Shown: positions 4,142 through 29,151 of the stretch, in pieces
Layout: every line of letters starts with the position of its first letter
How positions within the stretch are numbered: position 1 is the stretch's first letter
IMG/VR virus record: IMGVR_UViG_3300035670_000979
Coordinates: 1 to 29,748 of that record
Length of the DNA stretch: 29,748 nucleotides
From: a virus
Direction: 5' to 3' (one strand)
Made by a program: the position numbers and the translations under genes
Notes under the pieces: model-generated
Database searches by the model: none
What the model was told of the DNA's origin: nothing
Seen by the model: the letters and a program-made list of their open reading frames with translations, nothing else

Positions 4142-5049
4142 TGGCAAGCATCTTTGATCTCCTCGGAATGGGAGCACAAGCAGGAGCAACTCCTCCTATT
4201 TATAACCCTAATCAAAACCAATCAGAAGTTATTCCTGAAACGATTGACACTACTCCTATTGTGTCCGATCCTGCTCCTGAGCATAAAGGGCTGTTTGGAG
4301 TAAAAGGAACACTCCGCGATCTTCTTGGTATGGCAGGAGACTTCCGTGCTAATATGGAAGGTCGTCCTGGTAGGTACGAACAACTTCGTAAGCAAGAACA
4401 GATCGGCGATGCAATGCGAGGGTTTAATGAAGACCCTATGACTGCGATCCGTCGAGTGTTCAAAGCTGATGGTAAGCTCGGCAATGAAATGCTTGAGTCG
4501 TACAGGGAACAGGAAACTAAAAGGCTTCTGGCAGAAGAGAAGCGTCGTGAACAAGGTCGTCAGATTATTCAAGGGATGCTTGGTACGATTAAAGACGATA
4601 GGACGTATGCTAAGATGGCTCCGCTACTTAGACAGTCTGCTCAAAGGTATGGTGTACCTGCAGAGGAGATTGATCCGTACCTTGGTGATAAGTACGACCC
4701 TGATTTGATTGCAGCTTACAGGTATGGCGGCTTCCCTGTAGACCGACAGATTGCTGCAGAAGAGACTCGTAGGTATCACGATCTTCAAGACGAGAATGCT
4801 GATCAGCGCACTGGTATTCAAGCTAGTAGAGCGGCTGCTCAAAATGCTCAAGGAGCACGTAGAACTTCTGCGTACGAACGTAATGTAGCTAATCAAATTG
4901 AACGACGTAACAACCCTGTTGCTCGTCCCTCTAGTAAGACTTCGACGCCCCGTCCTAAGGGCAGCGGACCTGCTGTCGGAACTAAAAAGGGTGGTTACAC
5001 CTTCATGGGAGGCAACCCTGCTGACCCTAAGAGTTGGAAAAAGGATTAA
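4141..5049 (+). CDS. Probable internal virion/DNA-ejection protein
   Basis: The ATG overlaps the preceding stop in TAATG and has a GGAGG six bases upstream. The 302-residue product starts with a short hydrophobic MASIFDLLGMGAQAGA. It is then strongly charged and helix-forming (many Arg, Gln and Glu, with a coiled-coil-like central region ESYREQETKRLLAEEKRREQ). It ends in a low-complexity basic tail rich in Pro, Ser and Gly. This composition and its position between the gp7-like protein and the giant ejection protein match the three-protein ejection sets of podoviruses. I see no enzymatic motif. Confidence 0.5.
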   Translation: MASIFDLLGMGAQAGATPPIYNPNQNQSEVIPETIDTTPIVSDPAPEHKGLFGVKGTLRDLLGMAGDFRANMEGRPGRYEQLRKQEQIGDAMRGFNEDPMTAIRRVFKADGKLGNEMLESYREQETKRLLAEEKRREQGRQIIQGMLGTIKDDRTYAKMAPLLRQSAQRYGVPAEEIDPYLGDKYDPDLIAAYRYGGFPVDRQIAAEETRRYHDLQDENADQRTGIQASRAAAQNAQGARRTSAYERNVANQIERRNNPVARPSSKTSTPRPKGSGPAVGTKKGGYTFMGGNPADPKSWKKD

Positions 5050-5051
5050 CA

Positions 5052-8000
5052 ATGGCTAATGAACCGTGGCTTGAATATCAGACTACACCTGCCCAAGAAC
5101 CGAAAGGTCCGTGGGAAGAATACCAGACTGAAACCGCTCAGGCCCCGGTCCAGCCGGAGGCTCCTAAAAGCCCTGCTATAAGCGAGAGCCTTGCCGCTGG
5201 CTATCGTACGGCAAAGGATGAAATTCCTTATGTGCAGACTACTCGCAAGAGAGACGCGTATTTTGATCTTGCAGCCAAGATGGGGAAGAATCCTGTAACG
5301 GACTATTTCTCAGTAAAGGGTTTGATCCCTGGCTCGGACATGTTCGATGTCGATAAATACGATTATGATGCACTGTTCAATGACGCTAAGAAAGCAGGTC
5401 TTGTCACCGCTAAAGATCGTAAAGAATTTGAACGTAATCTTTTGCAGAGGGATGGAGAGCGTTTTGCAGACCTTAAGACTGTGTACGATAATCCAATTTT
5501 GGGTACTATCGGCGGGCTGGGGTCTTTTATTCACGATCCGTTAAATGTTGGAGCTAGTCTTGTTACAGGCGGTTTATCTAAGGGCATGTCTTTGGGTAAA
5601 GCCCTCGCCACTGAAGCAGGTGTTAACGCGCTAACTGAACTTGCTCAAGTTCCTCTTACTGATCGTGCGCTTGAAGCAATGGGAGAAGATTTGACTCCCG
5701 AGCAAGCAGCGGCTCGTGTCGCAATGGCGGGAGCTTTCGGGGCGGGTCTCCATGGGCTGTTCCGTAGCCTTGGTATTGGCGACCGCGTAGAAGCTGAACC
5801 TACTGTGCGCACCGATGAAACCACTGCTGTTGAAGGAGCTGCGCCTGCAGGCACTCGTGAGTGGACCGATGAGGAAATGCTCGGCATCACTAAGATGATC
5901 GAGGAAGGCGGTACGGTTGATGACATCGCTAAGGTGTATCCGCTTACTGAAGAACAGCGTAATGCCATTGGTTGGTATGTAGAAGCCAACAAGAAGGGGC
6001 AGGATCAGAAGGTTATCTTCGAAGGTGGTGATAAGCCTGCAGAGGAAGATGTTCCGTTTGAAGCACCTGATTTCCTTAATCAGCCTGTCAAGGGGCCATT
6101 CAAGGAAACTCCTGCGTTCCTTAATGAGAGCGCTACTCCTCGTACGGTAGAAGACCTTCCTAAGCCTGCCAAGGGCAAGAAGGCTGTCTCGATTGAGAAC
6201 AGCGCAAAGAAGACTTCAGCTAGTGCTCCGGGTGCTGTAAAGGAACCTGAGACTGCTCCTATTCGTGTGCCTGTTAATAAGGCAGTTGACCATATCAATG
6301 ACATTACTAGTGACTGGAAGGCTGCTCCTGAGTTCTCTGTAGCAGGCCGTCTAGAAGACCTTCCTGACAATGTTCGTAGGGATATCATTGAGGATGGCGC
6401 TGAAGACGCTATTGGTGTTACTGTTGATGGTAAGGTGTATATCCTTGCTCACAACATTAAGGACGCAGATGAACTGTCTGCTGTCACCTTTCATGAGGCT
6501 CTTGGCCACGTAGGCCTTGAGCGTATGTTCCGTCAGCGTCTTGATGCTGTCCTTACTCAGATGTACAATACCAATGAAATGGTACGTAACTCTGCAGATG
6601 GCTGGCTCGCTAAGAACAGTACTCAGGCAGGCAATCCTATTGCTCATGCTGTGGAAGAGATTCTTGCTGAGACTTCTGAAGGTGGTAAGCTTGAAGCTCG
6701 TATCCTTGATAAGGTTCGTGCTTTCCTTAAGCAGTACGCCCGTCGTATCCCCGGTCTGAAGAACCTGAAGTACACAGACAAGGAAGTTTACGCTATCCTT
6801 TCTATGGCGCACCAGAAGGTTACAGACGGTGGCCGCTCTGTCGGTCGTACGGGTAATCGCTATATGCGTATGTACGCTAATGACAATGTGGACCAGCGCC
6901 GAGTCTCAGATATTATTGATCGTGAAGCAGAGTTCTGGGGAATCAAGGATGTGAACAAAGCCCTTAAAGAAAGGGACTTTAGAGCAGATGTTCGAGCAGC
7001 TCTAGCCAAAGAGGGTCTTCCACAAGACGTTATTAACTTTGATCCTCGCATGACAAATAAGTACTCCAAGCCTGACACTGAAGGAGGTCGTACTCGTGGT
7101 CTCCGTCTAGACAAGATTGTCACTAAGGACGATGAAGCTAGTGCTAAGTTCATCAAGGAGCTTCAGAAGGAACTTCCTGATAAGTACACACAGTCTTGGG
7201 AAGAGACTGAAGCCATGGCAGAGCGTATTGGCATGAACATCAATAAGCTTGAGAAGATGGCAGACGGCATTAATCCTGAACATATCAAAGCTGCTGAAGT
7301 CTTTGTTATCGGTAAGCTCAACATGATTACTGACCTACAGAAGAAGCTTGATGGAAACAAGTGGACGCTTAAGGACAGAGATAATCTTATTGTTCAGACT
7401 CGACAGTTTGTTGAAGCGCTTAAAGCTCTTGAAGATATTAAGTCTGCGCAGGGCCGTAACCTTAACATTCTTCGTACGATGACGATTAATAACAAGGCTG
7501 GTACTAACAAGGTCCGCTACGCTCTCGCTCAGGCAGAGAAGAATGGACTTAGCGATGTTGAGTCAATGAAGCAATTGGCTAACGCTCTTGATGAACTCAA
7601 GAAGAATCCTAAGGGTACTGCTGAACGTGGTTACTCGAAGGCTTATGAGTATTTCATGGATGTTATCAATATCCCCCGTACACTGCAATCGACTTATGAC
7701 ATGTCGGCTCCTTTCCGGCAGGGTATTAACCTTGTGTCAAGAAAGGAGTTCTGGAAAGCATACGCAAAGATGTTTAGCTACGCTAAAAGCGAGAAAGCAT
7801 ATCTAGACCTTCTAGAAGATATCAAAAGTCGTCCTACTTATGAGGCAATGCAAAACGCTAAACTGTTTATTGCTGAACTTGAAGATGGTATCAGTGGCAG
7901 AGAAGAAGCGTTTCTTTCTAAGCTTGCCGGGAGAGTTCCGGGCGTACGTATTTCAGAGCGTGCATACAACGGCTTCCTTAACAAGCTTCGGGCAGACACC

Positions 8001-14458: not shown

Positions 14459-14938
14459 TCATATAAATGGTTTTCTTTTTACTGGTTTTTTCTTTTTAGG
14501 GACAAACCATCCAGTACCTTGCTCTAGGTAATCTGCAATTTTTCTAAAGATTTTACCATCACGGTGTCGTCCAACTCGCATTCTATTACAATAGTTACAT
14601 AGAAGTCCTCGGATTTCTCCAGTAATATGATCGTGATCTACATGGAAATTTGTTTTTTCCATATCTTGATGCTTTTCACAAACAGCACAACAATTATTCT
14701 GCTTTTCTAGTAGAAATTTATATTGTTCAATTGTTATACCGTACCTTGATTTTAGGTGATTAGCTCTGCGTTGCTGTTTGAGCAAATTGGGATCAGAACT
14801 ATTCTTTGCCTTCCGCAAAATTGATAAACACAGCCTACAAGTTGGGTCGTTTATCTTACCTGCACGAGAAGTATAAAAAGCGTCTCGTGGTTTTATTTCT
14901 TTACAGTGCTTGCACTCTTTTTCTTTAAGTGACTTCAT
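14459..14938 (-). CDS. Endonuclease VII-family nuclease with extra N-terminal zinc site (homing-type)
   Basis: The 159-residue product starts at ATG 14938 after GGAGG and overlaps the nuclease gene upstream by 14 bases. An N-terminal CKHCKEIKPRDAFYTS and CRLCLS give one CxxC pair set (residues 9-12 and about 36-39). The C-terminal part, CAVCEKHQ, NFHVDHDHITGEIRGLLCNY and CNRM, is the endonuclease VII HNH core. Coding is markedly more AT-rich than the neighbours, which suggests recent acquisition. It sits exactly at the 3' end of a core gene like the other three nucleases. A basic tail (KKKKPVKRK) would aid DNA binding. Confidence 0.8.
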   Translation of the reverse strand: MKSLKEKECKHCKEIKPRDAFYTSRAGKINDPTCRLCLSILRKAKNSSDPNLLKQQRRANHLKSRYGITIEQYKFLLEKQNNCCAVCEKHQDMEKTNFHVDHDHITGEIRGLLCNYCNRMRVGRHRDGKIFRKIADYLEQGTGWFVPKKKKPVKRKPFI

Positions 14939-15767
14939 AAACCTCCGGTTCTCGCACAACCTTAGTAAGATACCGTGGGCCTGTGCTATAAATAAACGTT
15001 CTAAGGTCCTTCCAGCAGTGGTGCTTGAAGGCACAATAACTACACTCTGTTCCCAGCTTCATGTTACCAGACTTGCCGTCTGGCTCATCAGGGAAGCAAC
15101 GTTCTGGCGGTGTCTCGCTAGCAATAACTTCCTTGAGATGTGCAATGCGTGGCCGCGGCGGATTGTCAGCGATGATAGATGCACTGACATTCATTACACA
15201 CAAGTCCCCACTTACCTTGTCTGCGGCAAGAAAAGCTCCAGCTTCTCCCGGAGTAATCGTATCTGTGTAGCCAGAGATTTGCTGGATATACCCAAAAGGA
15301 TCGTTCTGATGGAGAGTGTTGTCTTTGAATTTCTTATACGCAAAGGGAGAAGCGGATTTAACATCAGTGACAACACCATCAATGATAGCATCGATGTGCC
15401 CCTTGACACCATCCACTTCAATCTCCATCTGTTCAGCTTCAACGCTATGACCAGATTCCTTAGCAAGGAAGAGAAGAAGTGCTTCAATCACATCACCATA
15501 AAGGAATTTGAAGTATGTCTTTGGGGTCATCTCTTCTGAAGGATACCCCTTAGCCATATACCATAGCTGTCGGTCTGGCTTACCCAGAGCAGAGAACCGC
15601 AGAGGGTCTCGTACGTCTTCTCGCGATGCGAGTCGTACGCGGAGAATCTGCTTCATGTTCTGGGCGAACTCTTCTAGGTTGTCCTCGTTAGGCTCGTGCA
15701 TGACCTTAGGATCAAACAACGAGTATATGTCCTGAACGAGTGTGTCAATCGTCTTTTGTTGGGTCAT
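14925..15767 (-). CDS. PD-(D/E)XK exonuclease, Cas4/RecB-like, with possible Fe-S cluster
   Basis: The product is 280 residues. The core motif is VKGHIDAIIDG (H124, D126) followed by VVTDVKSAS (D135, K137) and YIQQISGY (Q163), in the order of Cas4/RecB nucleases. C242-xx-C245-x5-C251 near the C-terminus, with C224 as a possible fourth ligand, matches the cysteine cluster that binds [4Fe-4S] in Cas4 and AddB relatives. The usual N-terminal cysteine is replaced (GKPDRQLWY). No CRISPR array is present, so it is more likely the phage recombination/degradation exonuclease that takes the place of T7 gp6. It overlaps both neighbours. Confidence 0.75.
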   Translation of the reverse strand: MTQQKTIDTLVQDIYSLFDPKVMHEPNEDNLEEFAQNMKQILRVRLASREDVRDPLRFSALGKPDRQLWYMAKGYPSEEMTPKTYFKFLYGDVIEALLLFLAKESGHSVEAEQMEIEVDGVKGHIDAIIDGVVTDVKSASPFAYKKFKDNTLHQNDPFGYIQQISGYTDTITPGEAGAFLAADKVSGDLCVMNVSASIIADNPPRPRIAHLKEVIASETPPERCFPDEPDGKSGNMKLGTECSYCAFKHHCWKDLRTFIYSTGPRYLTKVVREPEVYEVT

Positions 15768-16327: not shown

Positions 16328-16720
16328 TTATACTGTCATTTTCTGACGACACATTTTTCTATGATACTCTTTTATACTGGGTCGGTTTAGATTATCTTTT
16401 TGTGATTCGTAACACAAATTGTTTACCGAATTATCCAAAGAGTTTTCATTAATATGTGAAATGACAAAAGATACTGGGCGTTCACCTAAAAATGTCTTAG
16501 CTATTAAAGATGCAATACGATACGTTTTTCGTCTAAAGACGATAATCTTTCGTTTGTAATTTTTAGTAACTTGTTGGTTATGCCCGTATGTCGGTTTTAG
16601 CCTATTTATTTTGAACCCGCCACGCGGCATCGGTGTCTCGTAATCTTCTGACTTGACACGACCCAACGTAGATACCCATAAATAATCAACATTTGGAACT
16701 TTCTTCCATTCTTCGATCAT
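16328..16720 (-). CDS. HNH homing endonuclease with NUMOD4 motif
   Basis: The 130-residue protein begins MIEEWKKVPNVDYLWVSTLG and RVKS, the NUMOD4 DNA-binding motif. It continues to a HNH_3-type core VISHINENSLDNSVNNLCYE. The catalytic His and the paired Asn residues are in place. It starts ATGA over the stop of the ssb gene. The coding region is strongly AT-rich and basic. Proteins of this type nick or cut a target in a cognate gene and copy themselves into it; here the obvious target is the ssb region. Confidence 0.85.
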   Translation of the reverse strand: MIEEWKKVPNVDYLWVSTLGRVKSEDYETPMPRGGFKINRLKPTYGHNQQVTKNYKRKIIVFRRKTYRIASLIAKTFLGERPVSFVISHINENSLDNSVNNLCYESQKDNLNRPSIKEYHRKMCRQKMTV

Positions 16721-17803: not shown

Positions 17804-19626
17804 GTCAAACCGACCTTAGCATCACAATCAATGGGAAGCCGATAACGGAAATGCTCGCCGCTGCTGCGGAAAGCAAGGGGACAAACTTCGTACGCAAATT
17901 CATCTGTATGGTCCTTATAAACATCATTCTGCCATTCATCGTGAATGTCCCCTACCTTAAGGACATCTAGAGCACGACGACGGTTCTCAATATCTGCCAA
18001 AATGGCGGCCTTCTTCATGATTCTTGACTCGTCTCCTTGTAGGAGGTAGCCAAGGCGAGTGTGTGGAGAGGAGACGATAATGGGAGTCCCGTCACAAAGG
18101 ACAATTCTTCCAGTTCGGTCCACCTGTCTTTCAAGAGCATCGAGTAGATTTTTAAGTCCTGGGAAATTGTTTGTAAACAGTTGCTTAACTTCTCGACCAT
18201 CCTTTGTTGATCCGCCAATGATTTGCCCGACTTTTGCATCTCCTGCACCCAAGAGGTAGCTGTATATAAATGTTTTGGCAATACTTCGTGTCGCAAAACT
18301 TCCAATCTTTTGATTGTAACTGTGTGGGTCTCCTCCAAGAACTGCCTCCGTAAATTCAGGGTTGTTTAGATAATGAGCGAGAACGCGTAGCTGAATGCCT
18401 TTAGCGTCAACCCCAACGAGCATACGATCATCAGAACGAACGGTCCATAGGTTACGAGCTTCGTACGTAAAGACTCCGTCTTCCCCGTAGCGAACTCTAT
18501 CTTCTTTGTCAAGTCGTACAGCAGGTATGTTAGCGCTGTTAGGCTCGCTGTGGCGGTACCGAAGAGTATTAGCAAGCCACAAGCTACCATGAATGCACCC
18601 GGTATCATCGTTGTATGCCTCGATCCATGTATTAATCATGTTGGCACGAGCATTGTATTCAATCCAGTTAGCGATCAGTTTTACCTGTTCATTGCCAGAC
18701 TTCTCTACAAACTCTGCCAGACTAGGGCTTAGCTTTCCTTTGGAGGTGGGTTGAGGCGAGCCTCCCTTCGTGAACTCTCGGGGTTCCCATCCGAGTTCCA
18801 GAAGCTTTTCAACTCGTTGCTGAGGACTTCCAATGCTGAAGTACACGTAGTCATAAGCATCGTATTCTCCGTCGTCTTCTCGGACTCGGACTTCAACATA
18901 TTGCTGTTGGTGTCGTGTATAATTTGCAGAAGGGTTTCCATCTTTCTTAAATGGCTTCTTGAACGTAGCAACGTGTCTAAGTTCGGGAGGCCAGAACTCG
19001 TGGATTCTGTCTCGGATTTCATTCTCTTTTTCCCTTATCTTGTTATAGAGAATATGAGCTTCTTTGATATTAAACGCAAAACCATTACGCTTCTGCTTCT
19101 GTATGAGGTGCCATGAACGATGCTCAATGTCTAGACCGTCTTCTGTAAAACCAAGCTGGCGCATACGGTTGACAAGAGCAATAAACACCTTTCCGCACAG
19201 AATAGCATCATTCATGCAGTAGTCTTCTTGTTCTTGAGACCACTTGCTGAAATCATCCCATTCTGTTTTAGCGTGTCCAATACGCTTGCCCCATGCTGCT
19301 AGGCCATGTCCCCCGTCAAGGGACGGAGAATAAACCATAGACATAAGCATGGTATCACAGATATCAGAAATAGTAAGCTTAGTCCCTACAAGAAGATTCA
19401 GTGTGTAGAAATCGTACCCAATACCATTGTGGGCTACGAACTTACAGCCTTCTGCCTTCCTGTCGGCAATCCATTTACGAAGGTTCTCGTAATCACGAAA
19501 GCGAACTTCCTCTCGTGTACGAATATTCCATGCGCAAGCGCACCAGACCCTTGTTGAAGGTATGGGATCGCCCTCTATGTCTATTGCCCAATAAAGATGC
19601 AACTTTTCTTTATTTGGGAGATACAT
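17785..19626 (-). CDS. Family A DNA polymerase with 3'-5' exonuclease (T7 gp5-like)
   Basis: The protein is 613 residues from ATG 19626, which overlaps the HNH gene stop (TAATG). The exonuclease motifs are intact: D16-x-E18 (AIDIEGD), D72 (NGIGYDFYTL) and Y136xxxD140. Polymerase motif A is VGVDAKGIQLRVLAHYL with catalytic D407. Motif B is RSIAKTFIYSYLLGAG with R447, K451 and Y455. Motif C is GDIHDEWQ with H562-D563-E564. It lines up closely with T7 DNA polymerase. Two active-site positions differ: Q412 replaces the steric-gate Glu (T7 E480, Klenow E710), and L459 replaces the Tyr at T7 Y530/Klenow Y766. Tyr at position 455 (Klenow 762) is the form associated with fast lytic phages. It is the replicative polymerase, working with the helicase encoded just upstream. 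Confidence 0.92.
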   Translation of the reverse strand: MYLPNKEKLHLYWAIDIEGDPIPSTRVWCACAWNIRTREEVRFRDYENLRKWIADRKAEGCKFVAHNGIGYDFYTLNLLVGTKLTISDICDTMLMSMVYSPSLDGGHGLAAWGKRIGHAKTEWDDFSKWSQEQEDYCMNDAILCGKVFIALVNRMRQLGFTEDGLDIEHRSWHLIQKQKRNGFAFNIKEAHILYNKIREKENEIRDRIHEFWPPELRHVATFKKPFKKDGNPSANYTRHQQQYVEVRVREDDGEYDAYDYVYFSIGSPQQRVEKLLELGWEPREFTKGGSPQPTSKGKLSPSLAEFVEKSGNEQVKLIANWIEYNARANMINTWIEAYNDDTGCIHGSLWLANTLRYRHSEPNSANIPAVRLDKEDRVRYGEDGVFTYEARNLWTVRSDDRMLVGVDAKGIQLRVLAHYLNNPEFTEAVLGGDPHSYNQKIGSFATRSIAKTFIYSYLLGAGDAKVGQIIGGSTKDGREVKQLFTNNFPGLKNLLDALERQVDRTGRIVLCDGTPIIVSSPHTRLGYLLQGDESRIMKKAAILADIENRRRALDVLKVGDIHDEWQNDVYKDHTDEFAYEVCPLAFRSSGEHFRYRLPIDCDAKVGLTWASTH

Positions 19627-20015
19627 TAAATTTTGTCCCAATTTTCGTATATAAGCAGGGCTTCGTGCTTTTCCATTCTGTTTTTTAATTTATTTGCTCT
19701 ATTGGAAATCAGCCGAACATTACCTTGAACATACCCTTTAGTGTTGTCAATCCTATCTAAAGAAGGTGAGTTGTCATCTCCGCCTGGTCCCTTGTTTCTT
19801 TGAAATGAAATAGGTATGCCTAAGACAGGGCAGATACTGTTCCACTTTACATCTTCAACTTTTAAAGAAAATTCTAAACCTTTAAGCTTAGCTCTGCTTT
19901 TTGCTTCTACTAGCATTCTGTTTAGTCTTTCTTCGACAGAAGAAAATGTTTTGCTATAAGATTTTCTTGCTCGTCTAAAATAGCCTTCTTTATTCTTTTC
20001 GTAATCTGTTACCAA
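19626..20015 (-). CDS. HNH-type endonuclease between helicase and polymerase genes
   Basis: The 129-residue product starts at TTG 20015 after AGAGG and overlaps the helicase gene by seven bases. It ends in TAATG with the polymerase start. The core is CPVLGIPISFQ, GDDNSPSLDRIDNTKGYV, and GNVRLISNRANKLKN. This D-R-I-D-x3-G-Y-x2-G-N-V pattern is common to small phage HNH nucleases. The N-terminal half is a basic helix. AT-rich codon use contrasts with its neighbours. It has been inserted cleanly between the two replisome genes, so it now supplies the translational context of the polymerase. Confidence 0.75.
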   Translation of the reverse strand: MVTDYEKNKEGYFRRARKSYSKTFSSVEERLNRMLVEAKSRAKLKGLEFSLKVEDVKWNSICPVLGIPISFQRNKGPGGDDNSPSLDRIDNTKGYVQGNVRLISNRANKLKNRMEKHEALLIYENWDKI

Positions 20016-22155: not shown

Positions 22156-22319
22156 GGATAAAGTTCAAGTCTCTCGATGATTTCTGCGTGTGTAAGCCTA
22201 TTTTTCTCACGTTGTTCTGCTTTTAGCCGTGCGTCTACCTTATCTCGCCAATCTCTAGTAGCTTGAGAAGCCCACGGCCAACGATCAGATTTGCCTTCCG
22301 AAATACCTGACGTAATCAT
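22152..22319 (-). CDS. Small basic protein (55 aa), unknown
   Basis: The ORF opens MITSGISEGKSDRWPWASQA and continues with a helix rich in Arg, Lys, Glu and Asp, ending ELYP. AAGGGA precedes the ATG at about nine bases. The start overlaps the 3' end of the ATP-grasp gene by 35 bases in another frame, and it fills what would otherwise be a gap. It is the last gene of the biosynthetic island. Function unknown. Confidence 0.55.
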   Translation of the reverse strand: MITSGISEGKSDRWPWASQATRDWRDKVDARLKAEQREKNRLTHAEIIERLELYP

Positions 22320-23037
22320 CAATAGTAGTCCCTTCGAGACCGGGAGCTGAGTTAATCTCTAGCACGTAAGCACGCTGCTGACGCTCATTCCAGATTACGT
22401 CCACTGCTCCGAAGTCAAGGCCTGATGCAAGCATTGCTCGCTGTGCCACGTCCAGTGCTAGGGTAGGGGGCTGAACGTTTTGTCGCACGAACACAAACCC
22501 GTTGGCATGATTTCGGATTTGCCAGTTTGGATCGTCCACGTCGGCACGACGGGCTTTGCGTTGCTGGCTGATGATAGATGTGCCACCATCATTAAGAACT
22601 CCTACATGGATACGATATTCGTCTTGCTTCTTGATATACTTAACATACAGGGAACAATCGACTAGTTCATCCCGAGTATTAGCAATAACAATTCCTTCGC
22701 CGGAATGACCAGCAAGAACAGTCCGGCAGACAATAGGAAAGTCTTCATCAGGAATATCCTCTTTGTTCGTCCAGAATGGTGGGATAACATCAGGCGCAAG
22801 CTCCTGCATCCTTTGAAAGAAGGTAAGCTTGTTACTAACATTTCGGATAGACTCAGGCTCGTTAAACATGATCATAGGGCCAGCGTAAGGATTAGTATTA
22901 CCCCAGTTAATGATTACATCTGTAGGCCGCGGTCGAAACCGCGAACCCTCAAGACGAAGGACCTTGCCACCAAGAGCGTCAGCAAGAGCACGAGCAGAGC
23001 GGCTGCCCTGACGATATGGAAGAACTCGAATACGCAT
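22285..23037 (-). CDS. ATP-grasp ligase of the amidoligase island
   Basis: The 250-residue product follows AAGGA. Residues 102-118 (IVCRTVLAGHSGEGIVI) form the nucleotide-binding loop. E140-YRIHVG supplies a phosphate/Mg contact, D213 lies in FGAVDVIW, and E227/N229 in VLEINSAPG are the metal-binding residues. Together these make an intact RimK/D-Ala-D-Ala-type ATP-grasp core. Such enzymes join a carboxylate to an amine through an acyl-phosphate. It sits 14 bases after a GS-fold amidoligase, as in the phage amidoligase neighbourhoods described by Iyer and colleagues (2009). The substrate is unknown; an amino acid or peptide is likely. Confidence 0.8.
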   Translation of the reverse strand: MRIRVLPYRQGSRSARALADALGGKVLRLEGSRFRPRPTDVIINWGNTNPYAGPMIMFNEPESIRNVSNKLTFFQRMQELAPDVIPPFWTNKEDIPDEDFPIVCRTVLAGHSGEGIVIANTRDELVDCSLYVKYIKKQDEYRIHVGVLNDGGTSIISQQRKARRADVDDPNWQIRNHANGFVFVRQNVQPPTLALDVAQRAMLASGLDFGAVDVIWNERQQRAYVLEINSAPGLEGTTIDDYVRYFGRQI

Positions 23038-23051
23038 GTTAGTTCCTTACC

Positions 23052-24527
23052 TCAATGAATGAATGCAATATTGTCGCCATTGAAACGACCATCACGAATG
23101 TTATACCACCATGCCCTAGAAAGGTCTGTACGCCCCCCAACCATAAGGCGCTTGTTTGCACGTACCTGAATCATAGTGCCTCGACGGTCAATCTTAACGA
23201 TAATTGCACGGGCTACTCGCATACTAGTATTATCGTAGAAATGTAACCCATTTGAGTTAACAACACCGGCACTAATCGGCAGAGCAGCAGGGCACATTGT
23301 GTACTCAACTTGTGCGTCAGGCAGGTTAATGTTAAATGCTTCCGGGTCATAGTCAGGATTGCACCAATACTCGCCGTTCCAGTAGTAATTACGAGGGACA
23401 ATGCGAGGACGATCAGGCTCACCGGGGGCATCAGGACGAGCAACGTCAACGTCAGCAACCGGAACCGCTTCAGCGAAGAGAGGACGCAGCCTGTACGCAG
23501 GTGCAGGAGCTATAGCGGCAAAGTCATCGGCGATCACAAAGTCTTCAAAGGCTCGTCGTGCCGTCTTCTTTTTAGACTTGCCAAAAGGATCAGCGATGTA
23601 TTCCTTCTTGCACTCTTCATACCAATCGTGCCAAGGGAACCCTGCTACAATAGGTTGCGCTCGACGGAATCCGCACATGACAGCCGTATTGATATCAGGT
23701 ACGGTGTCAATAACGCCAGTTACAAAGTCAGGCGATACACCAGCCTTCTCACAAATCTCCATGAAGATTTCACGACCGCCCTTCTCAGACATGCTGTAAG
23801 CCATCGTGGCAGGATTAGCGAACTTGTCACTAGCGTAGCGAGTAAGACTATGAACAAACTTAGTCCAATCGATAGCACGCTGTGCATCCTCAGTGCCGTT
23901 CATTACTCGGTATTCAAGCGAGCCAAAGCGATACAGCGTAAGAATGTTCAATGCACTATACTTGAGATTGTCATTGAAATCCCGACGACCTGACCGAAGG
24001 AAGCTACGCCATGCGGACACAGTGCCTGCATTGCAATCCTTAGCACCAAGGCAGAAGTGGTTATTAACTCGCTCTTCTCCTGCCCAAAGAGTCAACGGCT
24101 CCTCGAAAGCGGTCCAAAGAGCGATAGCAGAAGTAATATCATTAACTTTTGCACCGGCCATGTTGACGTGTACGTGGGTCGAGCAGCGATTTGAAAGCTT
24201 AAGTTCTGTTCCATTGTCGACAAAGGCCTTGTAAAGACCCTCGACCATCGCGTCTACTTCGTCAATATTGCAAGGTCGGCTGAGGACATACTCAAGAGAT
24301 TCACCACGAAGGGAACCGTCTGACTTGCTAGTCCACTGCGAACCAGTAGTCTTGCCCACTACACGGGCCAGCTTTCCGGACGAAGGAAGATTTTCGCCTT
24401 CAATCTCGAACTCAAGTCCGATTTCACCAAGGCCGTTAATGGCCACAACAGGTTCGTTCATTACGACAGAAGGAATACCGACATGCGGAGCCTTAACCTT
24501 TTCGTACTCTTCCATGAACGCAGTCAT
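23052..24527 (-). CDS. GS-fold amidoligase (COOH-NH2 ligase)
   Basis: The 491-residue product starts at ATG 24527, ten bases after AAGGAG. Residues 37-45 GLEFEIEGE supply the first acidic metal ligands. SDGSLRGESLEYVLSRP (69-85) holds further catalytic acids. C115-STHVHVN holds H118 and H120, and FGSLEYR (201-207) holds E205 and R207. This is the full motif set of the Amidoligase_2-type glutamine-synthetase-like fold. Residues from about 380 form an extra Tyr/Trp-rich C-terminal region (YYWNGEYWCNPDYDPEAF and onward) not needed for catalysis, perhaps a substrate-binding add-on. It is expected to make an amide or isopeptide bond using ATP. Confidence 0.8.
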   Translation of the reverse strand: MTAFMEEYEKVKAPHVGIPSVVMNEPVVAINGLGEIGLEFEIEGENLPSSGKLARVVGKTTGSQWTSKSDGSLRGESLEYVLSRPCNIDEVDAMVEGLYKAFVDNGTELKLSNRCSTHVHVNMAGAKVNDITSAIALWTAFEEPLTLWAGEERVNNHFCLGAKDCNAGTVSAWRSFLRSGRRDFNDNLKYSALNILTLYRFGSLEYRVMNGTEDAQRAIDWTKFVHSLTRYASDKFANPATMAYSMSEKGGREIFMEICEKAGVSPDFVTGVIDTVPDINTAVMCGFRRAQPIVAGFPWHDWYEECKKEYIADPFGKSKKKTARRAFEDFVIADDFAAIAPAPAYRLRPLFAEAVPVADVDVARPDAPGEPDRPRIVPRNYYWNGEYWCNPDYDPEAFNINLPDAQVEYTMCPAALPISAGVVNSNGLHFYDNTSMRVARAIIVKIDRRGTMIQVRANKRLMVGGRTDLSRAWWYNIRDGRFNGDNIAFIH

Positions 24528-24531
24528 TTTA

Positions 24532-25191
24532 TCAGAACTCCTTAATGTTAGAAATCTTGAAAGCAGGTGTTTCAGCAATTTGCTCTTTCAGGTATGAGAA
24601 CCGGTCGATAAGAAGAAGCGTGTCATTATCAACAAACAATCCTACACGATCCTGTTCGACATACAGCCAACGCAATCCTAGATCGTCTCGTCCAACAGCC
24701 ATGGTATTGCAAAACGCTATAGTGGTTCCAGCACGAATACGATTAAGAACTTCTGCAATATCAGGGTAATTGCCAGTAATGGCTGCCTGATACTGAACGT
24801 CCTTAGCAATAGTCTCAAAAGAAATTTCGCCAGTAGCGAGAAGACCCAGCCCCCGGTGCATTGCAATTTCTTTAACAAGAATATTGTTTCGAGAGAAGCC
24901 GTGTTGTCGGGAACGAATAGGTCGGCGTTCAAGAAAATACGCCTGTTTTGTATGTGTATTATTCACCCATCCGATAGGAAGTGGAACGCGGAACCGATGA
25001 AAGCCCTTGTCCGACAAGGAGATTTCCTCAGATACTCCTGTAGGATACTTAGTGGTAATCGCAGAAGGGTCTCCGCGACGCGACCTAATTTCGTGGATAT
25101 AAACAGGACAATCGTTGTAAAGAACAAACGAACCGGTCAACCTTTCATTGGCCTGATCCCTGTCCGTCCAAAAGTACTCTGTCTTAAGCAC
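24532..25191 (-). CDS. Unknown protein encoded between the two amidoligases
   Basis: The 219-residue product starts at GTG 25191, seven bases after AAGGGA, and overlaps the upstream amidoligase gene by eight bases. The N-terminal half appears beta-rich (SFVLYNDCPVYIHEIRSRRG, FHRFRVPLPIGWVNNT). The C-terminal half is mixed alpha/beta (GNYPDIAEVLNRIRAGTTIA, then DNDTLLLIDRFSYL). There is no TM segment, Walker motif or metal-site pattern. I do not recognise the family. Its tight placement between two amide-forming ligases suggests it is the substrate carrier, target or a subunit. Confidence 0.65.
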   Translation of the reverse strand: MLKTEYFWTDRDQANERLTGSFVLYNDCPVYIHEIRSRRGDPSAITTKYPTGVSEEISLSDKGFHRFRVPLPIGWVNNTHTKQAYFLERRPIRSRQHGFSRNNILVKEIAMHRGLGLLATGEISFETIAKDVQYQAAITGNYPDIAEVLNRIRAGTTIAFCNTMAVGRDDLGLRWLYVEQDRVGLFVDNDTLLLIDRFSYLKEQIAETPAFKISNIKEF

Positions 25192-26197
25192 GCTTGGTTC
25201 CCTTCTTGGTTTCGCGCTCAACAATATGAGCATGAGTAGGTTCTTCCTTTCCTGCCATCCGCTTAAGCTCAGCGTTTAGCAGCCTTCGGGTAGCGCCGTG
25301 AGAACTATAACAATAATTCAGAATGTTCCGAAGAACCTGATTAGCCTTCTCCGTATCACCCGTGTTGATAATAGTCTGGATAAAAGTATCCAAGTCTGAA
25401 ATATCGTCCATAAACCTGTAAGGATTAGCAGACCAATTGCCATAATTAAGATATGGCAGACCTACTATTGCCAGTTTAACAGTCCGGTCACTCTGCATAT
25501 TCAACCACGTAGCAAGATTCACAAGGTCATAGATAATACGACGACGGTTCTTGTGAGTCAGCCAAACGTTTGACGGGGTTCGATATTCAACACCGTAAGG
25601 CTTCGGACGGAATGCGCCAGCCTTGCCGTAGAGTTCACGACGACGAGAATCAGTGTCAATCAGCGTCATGAACATACCGACAGTCATATCAAGCTTCTTA
25701 ATGAAGCCTGTACAAATTTCGATATGATCGGGGTGATCTACAGGAATATCTGCACCCCATCCTACGTGGATATGCCCGCTGGCCGTACGGAAGGTAACAT
25801 CGCCGTCAGGCCGCGGATTAGGTTCCTTGGTGTAAGCATTCCAATCAGGATCGCACCCAAGTTCCTTAGCTTCCTTCGGCTGCTCAGCCATAAGGTCTTC
25901 ACCAAAGTCCTGAACAGGGGCAATGTTAAAGCGAACAGTCTTGAACCCGTTAGCCTTAACGTCTTCCTTCAGCTTCTTCATGACAGAGACAATGTTCTTG
26001 TCAAACATTGGGAACTGCCCAGTCGCAGGAACAGGATCAGTATTAAATTCAAGAGCCATTCCATCGACCTGATAGGCACCAGCAGGAACCTTAAATGGCT
26101 CGCGCTTAGTTCCCTTGACTACACCGTATGCACTGACAGGCTTGCTAGTGCGGGCGTCAACCAGAAAGATTTCAGGATCGCAACCAATAGTAAACAT
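25184..26197 (-). CDS. phiEco32-like COOH-NH2 ligase, type 2 (second amidoligase)
   Basis: The 337-residue product follows GGGGAG. GCDPEIFLV (5-13) and YQVDGMALEFNTDP (42-55) give the acidic ligands. ASGHIHVGWG (139-148) holds H142 and H144, and YGVEYRTPSNVW (201-212) holds E204 and R206. This is the GS-like amidoligase pattern first noted in phage phiEco32 neighbourhoods. It is clearly diverged from the other amidoligase in this island but uses the same catalytic layout, so two successive or alternative amide bonds may be made. It has a basic C-terminal tail (ETKKGTKRA). Confidence 0.82.
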   Translation of the reverse strand: MFTIGCDPEIFLVDARTSKPVSAYGVVKGTKREPFKVPAGAYQVDGMALEFNTDPVPATGQFPMFDKNIVSVMKKLKEDVKANGFKTVRFNIAPVQDFGEDLMAEQPKEAKELGCDPDWNAYTKEPNPRPDGDVTFRTASGHIHVGWGADIPVDHPDHIEICTGFIKKLDMTVGMFMTLIDTDSRRRELYGKAGAFRPKPYGVEYRTPSNVWLTHKNRRRIIYDLVNLATWLNMQSDRTVKLAIVGLPYLNYGNWSANPYRFMDDISDLDTFIQTIINTGDTEKANQVLRNILNYCYSSHGATRRLLNAELKRMAGKEEPTHAHIVERETKKGTKRA

Positions 26198-26412
26198 TAA
26201 TTGAACTCCCCAACAAACTTAAACGCATAATCAGAACGTGCGGCAACACCGCTAGAGTGAACTACAGCAGGATACGGGGAAACATTTCCTTTTGCATCCA
26301 TTACTTGAATCTTAGCGCCCTTCTTAAGCTTATCTGCGGTTGCACAAGCCCCGTGATGGTATAGATTACCGAAAGGTCCGGGAAAGGTGATACGAAAACC
26401 TGCAACAAACAT
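26197..26412 (-). CDS. Small beta-rich protein, unknown
   Basis: The 71-residue product starts after AGGAG and ends in a TAATG overlap with the second amidoligase. The sequence (FRITFPGPFGNLYHHGAC, KKGAKIQVMDAKGN) suggests a small barrel with a conserved-looking His pair and one Cys. No family recognised. Coupling implies a role with the ligase, for example as a substrate or cofactor subunit. Confidence 0.6.
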   Translation of the reverse strand: MFVAGFRITFPGPFGNLYHHGACATADKLKKGAKIQVMDAKGNVSPYPAVVHSSGVAARSDYAFKFVGEFN

Positions 26413-26424
26413 TAATTATACTCC

Positions 26425-27804
26425 TCAATTGATCATTGTGGCAACAACAAGTGCCGGGTTTGGTTCAACACACGTACGACAAATGAAAGTCACATACTCC
26501 TTGTCAAACTTTCGATCACTCGAATGAATAAAGATTTCATGGACTTCATCCAAATCCCCAACAGGTGACTTACAGAAGGTGCAGACTGCTCCCGTGAGCT
26601 GTTCGAAACGCTGCTCTGAGAACTCAGTCTTAGTCTTATTATCCGTGATGAACGGTATTCCGGACACTGTGCGAAAGGACACCTTCGGCTTTTCGCAATT
26701 CTCCGAACAATCGTTGCACTTTCTTGCAGTGCTTCCGCTGTTTTCCTGCTGACAGCTTTTGGAACTCGACGATGGTAATGAGAGCTTTGGACGCTGCCCA
26801 TTTGTCGAACTTGTCGATACCGTCGAGGAACCCGTATTTTGTTGTGAAGACTTCTGCGATTTGTCGACGGTAGAAGCTGTATGTGTCGCAGCGCCCGGAG
26901 TCTGCGTGGTTGCTGGGAGTTGGCGGGGGCGTGACGTTCCTATGTCGTCGAGATTGTCGTCGAGAAGGTCCTTGTCCACGAAAGGGCTGGGCACTGAACC
27001 CCCGATGCTGCTACCATACCTGCCACCACTTCCATACAGGTGTGTCACGTTTCCCGAGTAGCTTCTAACCTCACCTTTAACATCGTTCTCTACCTTAAGG
27101 GTAAAGATTTCCGAGGGCTTATCCTTGTATGCGTCGATGGTGAATGATAGATGTGTCTCGATGGGAAGTTCAAAGAACGATTTGCCAGCATCATCCTTAT
27201 GGAGTTCAACACCAATACGAGTAGCCGCCGAGAAGAACCACGGCTCACTTGCCCACAGCATAGCCTTCTGGTCCTTTGTATGAGCAAAGTAAAGAGGACG
27301 ACGCTCATTGCGGAGGAAGTTAAGGGTGCGTTCCTTGTTATCCCAATAGACCAGCGCCCATGCACCGGTGTTGTCCAACTGGCTGATGGTGTCCTTAAGA
27401 CCATATTCGCTAATGTGCCAATACAGCCAGTCACTATCTACGTCAAACTGACGAGCACGCTCCATGGTGTAATGGCCCTGAAGAGTGCCATTATGAACGC
27501 CAATAATGTTACCATGCTCAAAGGGGTGAGCGTTAGCAACAATGTTGTCGCCAATAGTCTTGGCTCGACAATGGCCAATCAGCGCCTTGGCTCCGTGAAT
27601 ATCAATCTCACGGTCAAAGAACTTGGTCTCCATAAGATAGTTAGGAGTGCCAAGAGACTTCTTGTACTTGTAACCACCCGCTGAATTGACACGAATGACA
27701 CCAGTTGAATCAGTGCCTCGAAGTTGATTGACAACAAGCATACCCTTGAATGCATTGAGCAGCTTGTTGTCGATCTTGCCAGCTACGCCTATAATTCCAC
27801 ACAT
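26425..27804 (-). CDS. Class II (Ntn) glutamine amidotransferase with C-terminal zinc-binding tail
   Basis: The 459-residue product starts MCGIIGVAGK after AAGGA; an upstream in-frame start would block the required N-terminal Cys. C2 is the nucleophile exposed after Met removal. RGTDSTG (29-35), GHCRAKT (77-83), NAHPF (91-95), HNGTL (104-108) and D123/D126 complete the glutaminase site of GlmS/PurF-like enzymes. No synthase domain follows. Residues about 280-370 form a Ser/Thr/Gln-rich linker with CNDCSENC. The end has C408-xx-C411 and C442-xx-C445, a likely zinc finger. It should release ammonia from glutamine for the ligases encoded downstream. Confidence 0.85.
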   Translation of the reverse strand: MCGIIGVAGKIDNKLLNAFKGMLVVNQLRGTDSTGVIRVNSAGGYKYKKSLGTPNYLMETKFFDREIDIHGAKALIGHCRAKTIGDNIVANAHPFEHGNIIGVHNGTLQGHYTMERARQFDVDSDWLYWHISEYGLKDTISQLDNTGAWALVYWDNKERTLNFLRNERRPLYFAHTKDQKAMLWASEPWFFSAATRIGVELHKDDAGKSFFELPIETHLSFTIDAYKDKPSEIFTLKVENDVKGEVRSYSGNVTHLYGSGGRYGSSIGGSVPSPFVDKDLLDDNLDDIGTSRPRQLPATTQTPGAATHTASTVDKSQKSSQQNTGSSTVSTSSTNGQRPKLSLPSSSSKSCQQENSGSTARKCNDCSENCEKPKVSFRTVSGIPFITDNKTKTEFSEQRFEQLTGAVCTFCKSPVGDLDEVHEIFIHSSDRKFDKEYVTFICRTCVEPNPALVVATMIN

Positions 27805-27809
27805 TAGTA

Positions 27810-28184
27810 TTAGTCCTTCCACTCTTGGCATTCAGAGATGTCGAAAGTTTTCTTGCCATCAGGTGTTGTAAGAATCAACGACAGGTTACTTGAGTAGTAC
27901 CCGTTGTTGTAACCATACCCCGGAATGCTAACCGGGTGGCCGTTAGTAGGTACAAGCCGGATACCGTAGTCAGGCACTCTCTCAAAGAAATCTTCTGACG
28001 ACAGATCAAACTCCAATCCGTCGAAGTCTTCAAGGGAGATGGCTGAGAAATCTAAGTAGTGATGTTCACAGCACTCGCTATCATGAAAGTCTTCCAAAGT
28101 TGACCCATCATCGAAGCGAATGCCGTTGGCCCTTCTTACTGAAATAGTAGAGAAGCAGACATTCACCCGTGTAACTTTTGGCAT
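27810..28184 (-). CDS. Conserved-looking phage protein, possibly DUF7448-related
   Basis: The 124-residue product starts at ATG 28184, about ten bases after AAGGA. Its core has IRFDDGSTLEDFHDSECCEH and acidic strands, then RLVPTNGHPVSIPGYGYNNG. The DGST...H-x-x-CCE arrangement recalls a small DUF family seen in many phages; this resemblance is from memory and unverified. It contains a GYG/NNGYYSSNL loop that may bind a ligand. It lies between the inverted repeat and the glutamine amidotransferase, so it is co-transcribed with the island. Confidence 0.6.
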   Translation of the reverse strand: MPKVTRVNVCFSTISVRRANGIRFDDGSTLEDFHDSECCEHHYLDFSAISLEDFDGLEFDLSSEDFFERVPDYGIRLVPTNGHPVSIPGYGYNNGYYSSNLSLILTTPDGKKTFDISECQEWKD

Positions 28185-28322: not shown

Positions 28323-28396
28323 AAGGTGAGGATAACGGCCAACCAACATAGAGATGTCAGTAGAGCTATTACTAAGACTTTCCCTAGAGGTGTCAT
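28310..28396 (-). CDS. 28-residue single-transmembrane peptide
   Basis: The sequence starts MTPLGKVLVIALLTSLCWLA and ends VILTFNLL, one hydrophobic span with a lysine near the N-terminus. The ATG overlaps the stop of the C26-type gene (ATGA), and AAGGAG lies eight bases upstream, so translation is well supported. It ends inside the inverted repeat. It might anchor island proteins at the membrane or be a small toxin-like or lysis-modulating peptide; nothing specific can be said. Confidence 0.6.
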   Translation of the reverse strand: MTPLGKVLVIALLTSLCWLAVILTFNLL

Positions 28397-29151
28397 GCTG
28401 CAACTCCTTCGCTATCGTCGTAAGGCTCATCGGCAATACGATCCTTAGCTCCCCATTCCAACATCAGGTTAAAGAGCTTGTTCATGGTCCACGAACGATA
28501 CTGCTCATTGCCGATTTCAGGATGGCCTTGTACGAAAAAGCATTGCGTCAGTGCGTAGCAACCTGCTTCGATCTCAAGTTCAACAGCAGCGTCATCGGTT
28601 TCCTTGTCAACATGGACAACCAAATCAGCTTCTTCAAACTTGGTAGCAACCTGCTCCTTCGTGCAAGCAATGACTTCCATATCCTTGTTGAACTGCAACA
28701 TCTGGTGATGCAGAGACGTAGCCGTCACATACACATCATCGTCAATGTCATAGATAACATGATCAGGTCCGCCATGATTATTGACGTTCTGCCAGAGCTT
28801 GCCGCCATTCATCGCATGAAGGAACTGTGCGCCGCGGCAGATACCGAAACACACCTTGTTTAGCCTCTGGGCCTTGCGATAGAAGAACTCCTCTTGGAAG
28901 TCTCGGTCGTCAGTCCAGAAAGATGAACGATGTGCCTTGGCGTCGTAAAGCTTGGGGTTGATATCTTCACCGCCGATGAAGACAACGACGTCTGCATCTT
29001 CGACAGTGTTTGCCTTGCCAAAGCCGGCCTCGGCCATGAGAGCGACACATGCGCCATAGAAGGCACCCGGAAGAACAAAAGCCTTCATACCCTTGCATTC
29101 GGGCATTTCACGGCTAGTGTAGTTCTTAGAGATTGAAGTCATTGCGGACAT
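28393..29151 (-). CDS. Class I glutamine amidotransferase/peptidase C26-like hydrolase
   Basis: The 252-residue product starts in a TAATG overlap with the upstream gene. FGICRGAQFLHAMNGG has the nucleophile elbow with C105. H210-P-E212 (VQGHPEIG) completes the catalytic triad, and TSLHHQ (145-150) matches the loop seen in gamma-glutamyl hydrolases such as PuuD. It also has the GGEDINPKLY segment near residue 60 typical of C26 enzymes. It either hydrolyses a gamma-glutamyl linkage or acts as a glutaminase. With an Ntn glutaminase already present, a gamma-glutamyl hydrolase that trims or recycles the amidoligase product is the more economical reading. It is a stand-alone domain. Confidence 0.85.
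   Translation of the reverse strand: MSAMTSISKNYTSREMPECKGMKAFVLPGAFYGACVALMAEAGFGKANTVEDADVVVFIGGEDINPKLYDAKAHRSSFWTDDRDFQEEFFYRKAQRLNKVCFGICRGAQFLHAMNGGKLWQNVNNHGGPDHVIYDIDDDVYVTATSLHHQMLQFNKDMEVIACTKEQVATKFEEADLVVHVDKETDDAAVELEIEAGCYALTQCFFVQGHPEIGNEQYRSWTMNKLFNLMLEWGAKDRIADEPYDDSEGVAA

Follow-up and report, generated by a model that had tools for sequence, protein, structure and literature searches.

A conserved protein encoded between the two amidoligases of phiEco32-type phage islands: a proposed non-catalytic partner of the glutamine-synthetase-fold enzyme

Introduction

What is the role of a protein that is encoded between two amide-forming enzymes? The question is raised by a virus record of 29,748 bases (the whole stretch analysed, hereafter the window), which carries a cluster of amidoligase genes on the minus strand. 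The gene in the middle, which we call MID, is flanked by a type 2 ligase (T2) and a glutamine-synthetase-fold amidoligase (GS). In the order of transcription the cluster reads as follows:

28393..29151, minus strand: Peptidase C26 / GATase-I protein (PF07722, E 3.8e-16)
26425..27831, minus strand: protein with a class II glutamine amidotransferase domain (PF13522, E 1.8e-14); a downstream ATG may be the start
26197..26412, minus strand: 71-aa ORF between T2 and the amidotransferase, without Pfam or PHROG match
25184..26197, minus strand: T2, phiEco32-like COOH-NH2 ligase type 2 (PF14395, above cut-off)
24532..25191, minus strand: MID, 219 aa, from a GTG at 25191 to the stop codon ending at 24532; phrog_11055, proposed non-catalytic partner of GS
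23052..24527, minus strand: GS, Amidoligase_2 (PF12224) glutamine-synthetase-fold amidoligase, 491 aa from ATG (PF12224, E 3e-05, above cut-off; phrog_7469, E 7.9e-47)
22285..23037, minus strand: RimK-like ATP-grasp ligase (PF08443, E 4.6e-05; phrog_2599, E 2.8e-73)

Amidoligase islands are widespread among phages (T2 was matched by 317 phage records and GS by 320), and we know of no established substrate or product for them. Islands of the phiEco32 type bring together T2, GS, an ATP-grasp ligase, a class II amidotransferase and a C26 peptidase. The window belongs to this type: T2 lies close to the GS-fold amidoligase (PF14395 and PF12224), an ATP-grasp ligase and a class II glutamine amidotransferase are found in the same cluster (PF08443, PF13522), and all five components co-occur. 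A gamma-glutamyl cyclotransferase, frequent but not universal in such islands, is annotated in several relatives. A role in cell-wall modification or superinfection has been proposed, attributed to Iyer et al. (2009) in the accessible text of PMC10580990 and PMC11318856, where the enzymes are discussed and the middle protein is not mentioned. The accessible parts of PMC6209634, PMC10580990, PMC4281155 (apart from an unnamed 23.3 kDa product), PMC11318856, PMC7824862 and PMC3517423 contain no discussion of MID or of the C-terminal tails described below; Iyer et al. (2009) may mention either.

A first-pass annotation, made from the letters of the window, had regarded the MID product as a non-enzyme and as the natural candidate for a substrate, carrier or scaffold of the two ligases. 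Here we ask which of these roles, if any, fits the occurrence, the conservation and the predicted structure of the protein.

Results

The MID gene

The first-ATG version of the ORF spans 24532..25233 on the minus strand. The GTG at 25191 is preceded by the stretch AAGGGAAC, and the N-terminus that it gives is consistent with those of close homologues. With this start the gene overlaps the T2 gene (25184..26197) by eight bases, exactly as first annotated. The distance to GS had been given as five bases; the near-contact stands, although the true gap between the MID stop and the GS ATG at 24527 is 4 bases, five being the coordinate offset. In the ORF list GS starts at an upstream TTG (24578), a start that would make GS and MID overlap. 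Overlap or near-contact between T2, MID and GS is common in the relatives; the first annotation took translation of MID to be tied to both neighbours, and such coupling may exist. Compared with a 61% identical relative, the nucleotide changes were concentrated in the third codon position (72/60/139 at positions 1/2/3). This bias, the match to phrog_11055 and the conserved synteny show that MID is a real gene, not a chance ORF.

MID is a nearly constant member of the islands

A tblastn search with the MID of the window alone returned only 2 phage records at E <= 1. The relatives have diverged too far to be recovered by simple searches, therefore we used synteny and profiles. The first 14 annotated phages were collected through MID matches (two) and T2 matches (twelve, from Zobellviridae, PaP3, 7-11, SJSY21, Slicky01 and an Alcaligenes phage), and in 14/14 the slot between T2 and GS was filled by a protein of 178-219 aa. 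Because the first MID profile was built from these 14 phages, their own matches to it are circular, and PHROGs served as the independent check. MID matched phrog_11055 with E = 5.4e-18, its residues 10-207 aligning with profile positions 7-188 of 192, thus across most of the length of the family. When 15 slot proteins including that of the window were scanned, phrog_11055 was found in 12 and phrog_4877 in 7 (E <= 0.01). PHROGs keeps these as two families and names no function for either (the category of phrog_11055 is unknown function), yet both occupy the same slot as MID, and the common slot and common members suggest that they form one superfamily.

The scans of IMG/VR viral contigs gave a similar picture. 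MID was present in 79 of 80 T2-seeded loci (kept of at least 583 confirmed), the single miss (L078) being a contig that ends at T2. It was present in 74 of the 80 GS-seeded loci (kept of 136 confirmed), and in the six misses (L100, L109, L112, L134, L138, L164) the contig begins either inside GS or no more than 336 bases ahead of its frame; L138 retains a 46-aa stub of MID. The two sets overlap, many contigs being common to both. Absence of the gene from most amidoligase islands, which the first-pass annotation had named as the outcome that would speak against its reading, is thus the opposite of what these loci show. When a scan was seeded with the clade of MID itself, 11/11 loci lay on contigs carrying both T2 and GS, and all three genes were present in RHph_N3_13, phiM6 and KIT05, which had been chosen by MID match. 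Six phages were chosen by GS match: MID was recognised by profile in SU10, PJNS034, 1.293.O and LAh_6; the slot ORF of Pseudoalteromonas phage HP1 was missed by the profile at E <= 1 and had a partial match to phrog_4877 (E 6.2e-6); in Bacillus phage 031MP002 GS is present together with a cyclotransferase, whereas T2 and MID were not found within the stretch examined. Small ORFs are inserted around MID in CVT22, CW02 and T2S1.

A T2 scan of a collection of 84,980 species, each represented by a single genome, yielded 11 loci, all in records titled metagenome-assembled genomes. Eight had MID by profile, one (L333) had a slot ORF that looked divergent by eye, one (L332) was cut, and one (L331) had T2 on a contig of 4.8 kb where neither GS nor MID was found. 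Among 398 bacterial genomes drawn from the phylum of the genome that carries locus L324, PF12224 was found in 24, the genome of L324 included, whereas only 2 had MID; one of these matches was the seed phage contig itself, the other was weak (E 1.7e-4) and, judged by eye, sits in a Mu-like structural region. None of 129 random viral loci matched MID, T2 or GS. PF12224 enzymes thus occur also where MID was not detected, namely in Bacillus phage 031MP002, in the genome G234 and in most of the 24 bacterial genomes. A cluster of another kind was seen at L352 (4998-10864): three of its ORFs are GS-like, the beginning of another looks by eye like that of a class II amidotransferase, and neither T2 nor MID was matched. 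From these surveys, MID is a conserved component of an already known kind of phage island.

Sequence and predicted structure of MID

MID had no match among the Pfam, NCBIfam and PADLOC models, in agreement with the earlier statement that it has no recognisable enzymatic motif. The PADLOC defence-system models matched none of 8 proteins tested, and the idea that MID belongs to a defence system was dropped for lack of such a match. A search for solved relatives by sequence gave one match only, to a designed protein (E 0.098). We found no natural fusion of MID with GS or T2; no ORF of the loci examined for this matched two profiles.

The AlphaFold model, computed from an alignment of 77 window and viral-contig sequences, was compact and confident (mean pLDDT 94.5, pTM 0.89, with pLDDT >= 90 for 195 of 219 residues). 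It consists of an SH3/Tudor-like N-terminal unit and a second beta unit. Ten matches at E <= 0.001 were found in BFVD, and the named ones are uncharacterised phage proteins, among them one of Salinivibrio phage CW02. In the PDB the Foldseek search gave no match at E 0.001 (best E 0.036). Closer comparison, mostly spanning MID residues 5-101, pointed to SH3/Tudor-like barrels: the best likeness was to the SETDB1 Tudor domain (Z 5.7, rmsd 1.9 over 52 residues), no Z reached 8 among the fold families compared, and weak likeness was also seen to the Tudor, RapA N-terminal, CarD and EF-P barrels. Barrels of this kind (SETDB1, 53BP1, the RapA N-terminus, VapX) align with about residues 5-70 of MID, but they leave its second half unmatched and have no sequence match to it; at Z under 8 the likeness may be merely a common arrangement. 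The C-terminal half modelled alone had a pLDDT of 87.8 and found no match in the PDB (best E 0.18, Z at most 4.5). Neither the PDB nor the BFVD search revealed an unrelated enzyme or virion family that MID strongly resembles; such a resemblance was the other finding that would have counted against the first interpretation.

MID follows the GS-fold amidoligase

If MID works with one of the two ligases, gene order and evolutionary distances may tell with which. In L049 and L051 the genes are arranged as MID-GS-T2, MID still standing beside GS, and in L056 MID and GS have stayed together about 2.4 kb from T2. L041 carries a second MID and GS pair (4170-5620, minus strand) on the strand opposite to a complete T2-MID-GS set, and no second T2 was found in this 10-kb locus. 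In the 14 annotated phages compared, out of 22, MID and GS overlap by 1 to 53 bases, and in the same 14 the spacing from T2 to MID ranges from an overlap of 22 bases to a gap of 10 bases. Outside this count are CVT22, T2S1, RHph_N3_13 and phiM6, which have small ORFs between MID and GS, CW02 with a 9-base gap, and KIT05, HP1 and PJNS034, where overlaps appear in their tables. The adjacency of MID and GS is thus not strict, the first four phages having intervening small ORFs.

Patristic distance matrices were compared for 124 loci, after 38 of 162 had been removed because their T2 was nearly identical to another or because they were too short. The correlation of distances was 0.76 for MID-GS, 0.60 for MID-T2 and 0.67 for GS-T2. 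The partial correlation was 0.61 for MID-GS given T2 versus 0.18 for MID-T2 given GS; in 500 label permutations it reached at most 0.13 and 0.15, respectively, and the bootstrap 5-95% range of the difference was 0.31 to 0.56. Mean distances were 3.5 for GS and 3.7 for MID versus 2.1 for T2, and because a correlation between two rapidly evolving genes can have other causes, we take the MID-GS correlation as support, not as proof. Synteny and correlated distances can also reflect operon linkage. With this reservation, gene order and distances point to GS as the partner ligase of MID.

A probable MID product in phage SU10

The accessible text of the SU10 proteomics study (PMC4281155) lists among the early products a 'hypothetical' protein of 23.3 kDa, identified by 1 peptide with 10.2% coverage, beside ATP-grasp, amidotransferase and YtfP-like products; the preparation was, according to the same text, not purified by CsCl gradient. 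The computed mass of SU10 MID is 23.28 kDa (that of SU10 GS 42.19 kDa), thus the listed product is probably SU10 MID. We say probably because the numbering differs: in the table of PMC4281155 the 23.3 kDa product is CDS 86, whereas in RefSeq MID is gp087 and gp086 is GS.

Discussion

We propose that, in phage islands of the phiEco32 type, MID serves the GS-fold amidoligase as a dedicated partner without catalysing a reaction itself, a reading that we hold to be reasonably probable. MID would bind GS, perhaps bridging GS and T2, and through this binding the amidation substrate would be recognised or handed on. The SH3/Tudor-like unit might offer the peptide- or protein-binding surface. The chemistry would be left to GS, T2 and the ATP-grasp ligase, and the amidotransferases would supply or remove glutamine-derived groups. 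We favour such a partner over a substrate or carrier because the slot is conserved, MID follows GS, the predicted fold is compact, there is no invariant acceptor residue, and no known enzyme is matched. The probable SU10 product, listed beside ATP-grasp and amidotransferase products, agrees with this reading. Against it speak the PF12224 enzymes seen where MID was not detected, the loose adjacency of MID and GS in some phages, the slot ORF of HP1 that the profile missed, and the weak fold match. A near-constant, unannotated member of the island that tracks GS offers a concrete complex to purify and a single gene to delete.

That a ligase attaches an amine or amino acid to a side chain or to the C-terminus of MID itself would fit a protein whose gene lies between those of two amide-forming enzymes and which is found together with both, and the close relatives of the window do have a common C-terminal ending (E-F/Y/I, the KEF type). 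However, this ending is present in 11/93 homologues only, those related to the window, and the side chains that could act as acceptors have no invariant column: the top Lys column is K179 (63 K plus 14 R), the top Glu column E203 (67), and the best Asp column has 40 of 93. The best-conserved positions are instead of the Gly, Arg, Asn, Pro and Ala types (G74 in 92; R93, G98 and G184 in 90 each; R89 in 87; N77 and P143 in 82). A conserved covalent acceptor in MID is therefore unlikely, and the two conservation checks proposed in the first-pass annotation, on Lys, Glu and Asp side chains and on the KEF residues, both turned out against a substrate. Pup is a disordered carrier with a conserved C-terminal Glu/Gln. 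Pupylation by PafA/Dop resembles the MID-GS pair in that a glutamine-synthetase-fold ligase works with a small partner protein, but MID is predicted to be compact, with high confidence over most of its length, and its C-terminus is not conserved. Column conservation and the comparison of C-termini did not support MID as a substrate, and we regard the substrate or carrier role as unlikely, well behind the role of GS partner. Of the original suggestion, a co-encoded non-enzyme working with the ligases is supported, the substrate and carrier parts are not supported by residue conservation, and MID may still be a scaffold or adaptor.

The weak barrel likenesses described above, and the probable place of SU10 MID among the early products in the available text of PMC4281155, could also be read as signs of a host-takeover protein, or one binding nucleic acid or RNA polymerase, which merely shares the operon. 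Such a protein would be expected away from amidoligases as well, yet it was met in 0 of the 129 random viral loci, and the 398 bacterial genomes gave the seed phage contig and the one weak match in what looks by eye like a Mu-like structural region; we find this explanation rather unlikely, hardly different in weight from the preceding one. The conserved polar positions (R93 in 90, R89 in 87 and N77 in 82 of 93) and a C-terminal half that resembles nothing in the PDB would suit an enzyme that belongs to an undescribed family and takes part in the same pathway. MID matched no enzyme family, however, and the columns of Asp, Glu, Cys, His and Ser, none of them above 67/93, fall behind the Gly, Arg, Asn, Pro and Ala columns at the top, which leaves an enzyme quite improbable, slightly more so than the two foregoing alternatives.

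Shared C-terminal tails in some related islands

Around some of the islands, small proteins with mostly unrelated bodies end in a common tail that is specific to the phage. This was seen in L096, L004/L201, L010, L001, L038, L076, L024, L030, L056 and L084; the window has no such tail set. In CVT22, 17 proteins end in LENE, one in LINE and one in LENK, at 28.0-43.2 kb of 47.6 kb. In RHph_N3_13 the ending E/D-E/D-D-I is found in 12 ORFs of the island region, and one more similar tail lies in the next 45 kb (the first 10.7 kb lie outside the count). After removal of the tails the bodies were alike in 1/66 pairs in RHph_N3_13, 1/136 in CVT22, 4/28 in CW02, 0/21 in T2S1, 1/36 in L038, 1/28 in L076, 7/15 in L024 and 1/21 in L030. 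Comparison of the last seven residues over the loci examined, repeated CVT22 copies included, gave 296 similar pairs on the island strand versus 2 on the other strand.

At least one similar-tail pair was found in 12 and at least three pairs in 7 of the 80 T2-seeded loci; the corresponding numbers for the 129 random viral loci were 11 and 1, the one (L308) being a duplicated segment with differing tails. The difference between 7/80 and 1/129 had a Fisher p of 0.0056, the random loci being shorter on average (about 8.2 vs 11.5 kb). Among 22 annotated island loci, four had six or more tail pairs and 15 had none. T7, T4 (1-50 kb) and N4 (1-45 kb) had 0 to 2 similar-tail pairs per strand, and we discarded the notion that such tails are a general phage feature.

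Two kinds of constraint can be distinguished. Codon identity at identical residues was close to that of the body in RHph_N3_13 (tail 0.42, body 0.47), L038 (0.47/0.44) and L076 (0.30/0.26), which speaks for conservation at the peptide level. It was above background in the tails of CVT22, CW02, T2S1, L024 and L030 (0.58-0.71 vs 0.42-0.48), which speaks for a constraint at the DNA level. The last 21 bases contained a Shine-Dalgarno-like word in 12/12, 16/17, 8/8, 7/7, 9/9, 8/8, 5/6 and 7/7 members of the eight sets, with a start codon close behind most of these words; as far as the sequences go, the tails of all eight sets could serve as ribosome-binding sites.

The common tails make their bearers candidate protein substrates in these islands, and we hypothesise a link between the tails and the ligases. 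The island might be a phage-encoded peptide-tail modification system, in which a phage would carry its own tail (such as GDT-E/D-E/D-DI, LEDWL or LENE) on otherwise unrelated small substrate proteins, the tails would mark the true substrates, and MID would be the adaptor that brings the tailed proteins to the GS-fold ligase; the window would then be a variant with its substrate elsewhere or in the host. The Shine-Dalgarno-like words in the tails of every set make this scheme less probable, and we consider it very unlikely. No sequence link was found between MID and 15 tail-bearing small proteins (hhalign probability 0.2).

Other genes of the window

Most of 15 aligned homologues lack the long C-terminal extension seen in the GS of the window (491 aa). 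The C-terminal AFKFVGEFN of the 71-aa ORF (26197-26412) faintly resembles the AFKISNIKEF of MID. The C26 peptidase-like protein (28393-29151) bears a weak similarity to gamma-glutamyl-CDP-amidate hydrolase, with E 5.4e-6 and 26.6 bits where the curated cut-off is 250. The ORFs at 14459-15034, 16328-16720 and 19626-20015 look by eye like HNH-type homing endonucleases.
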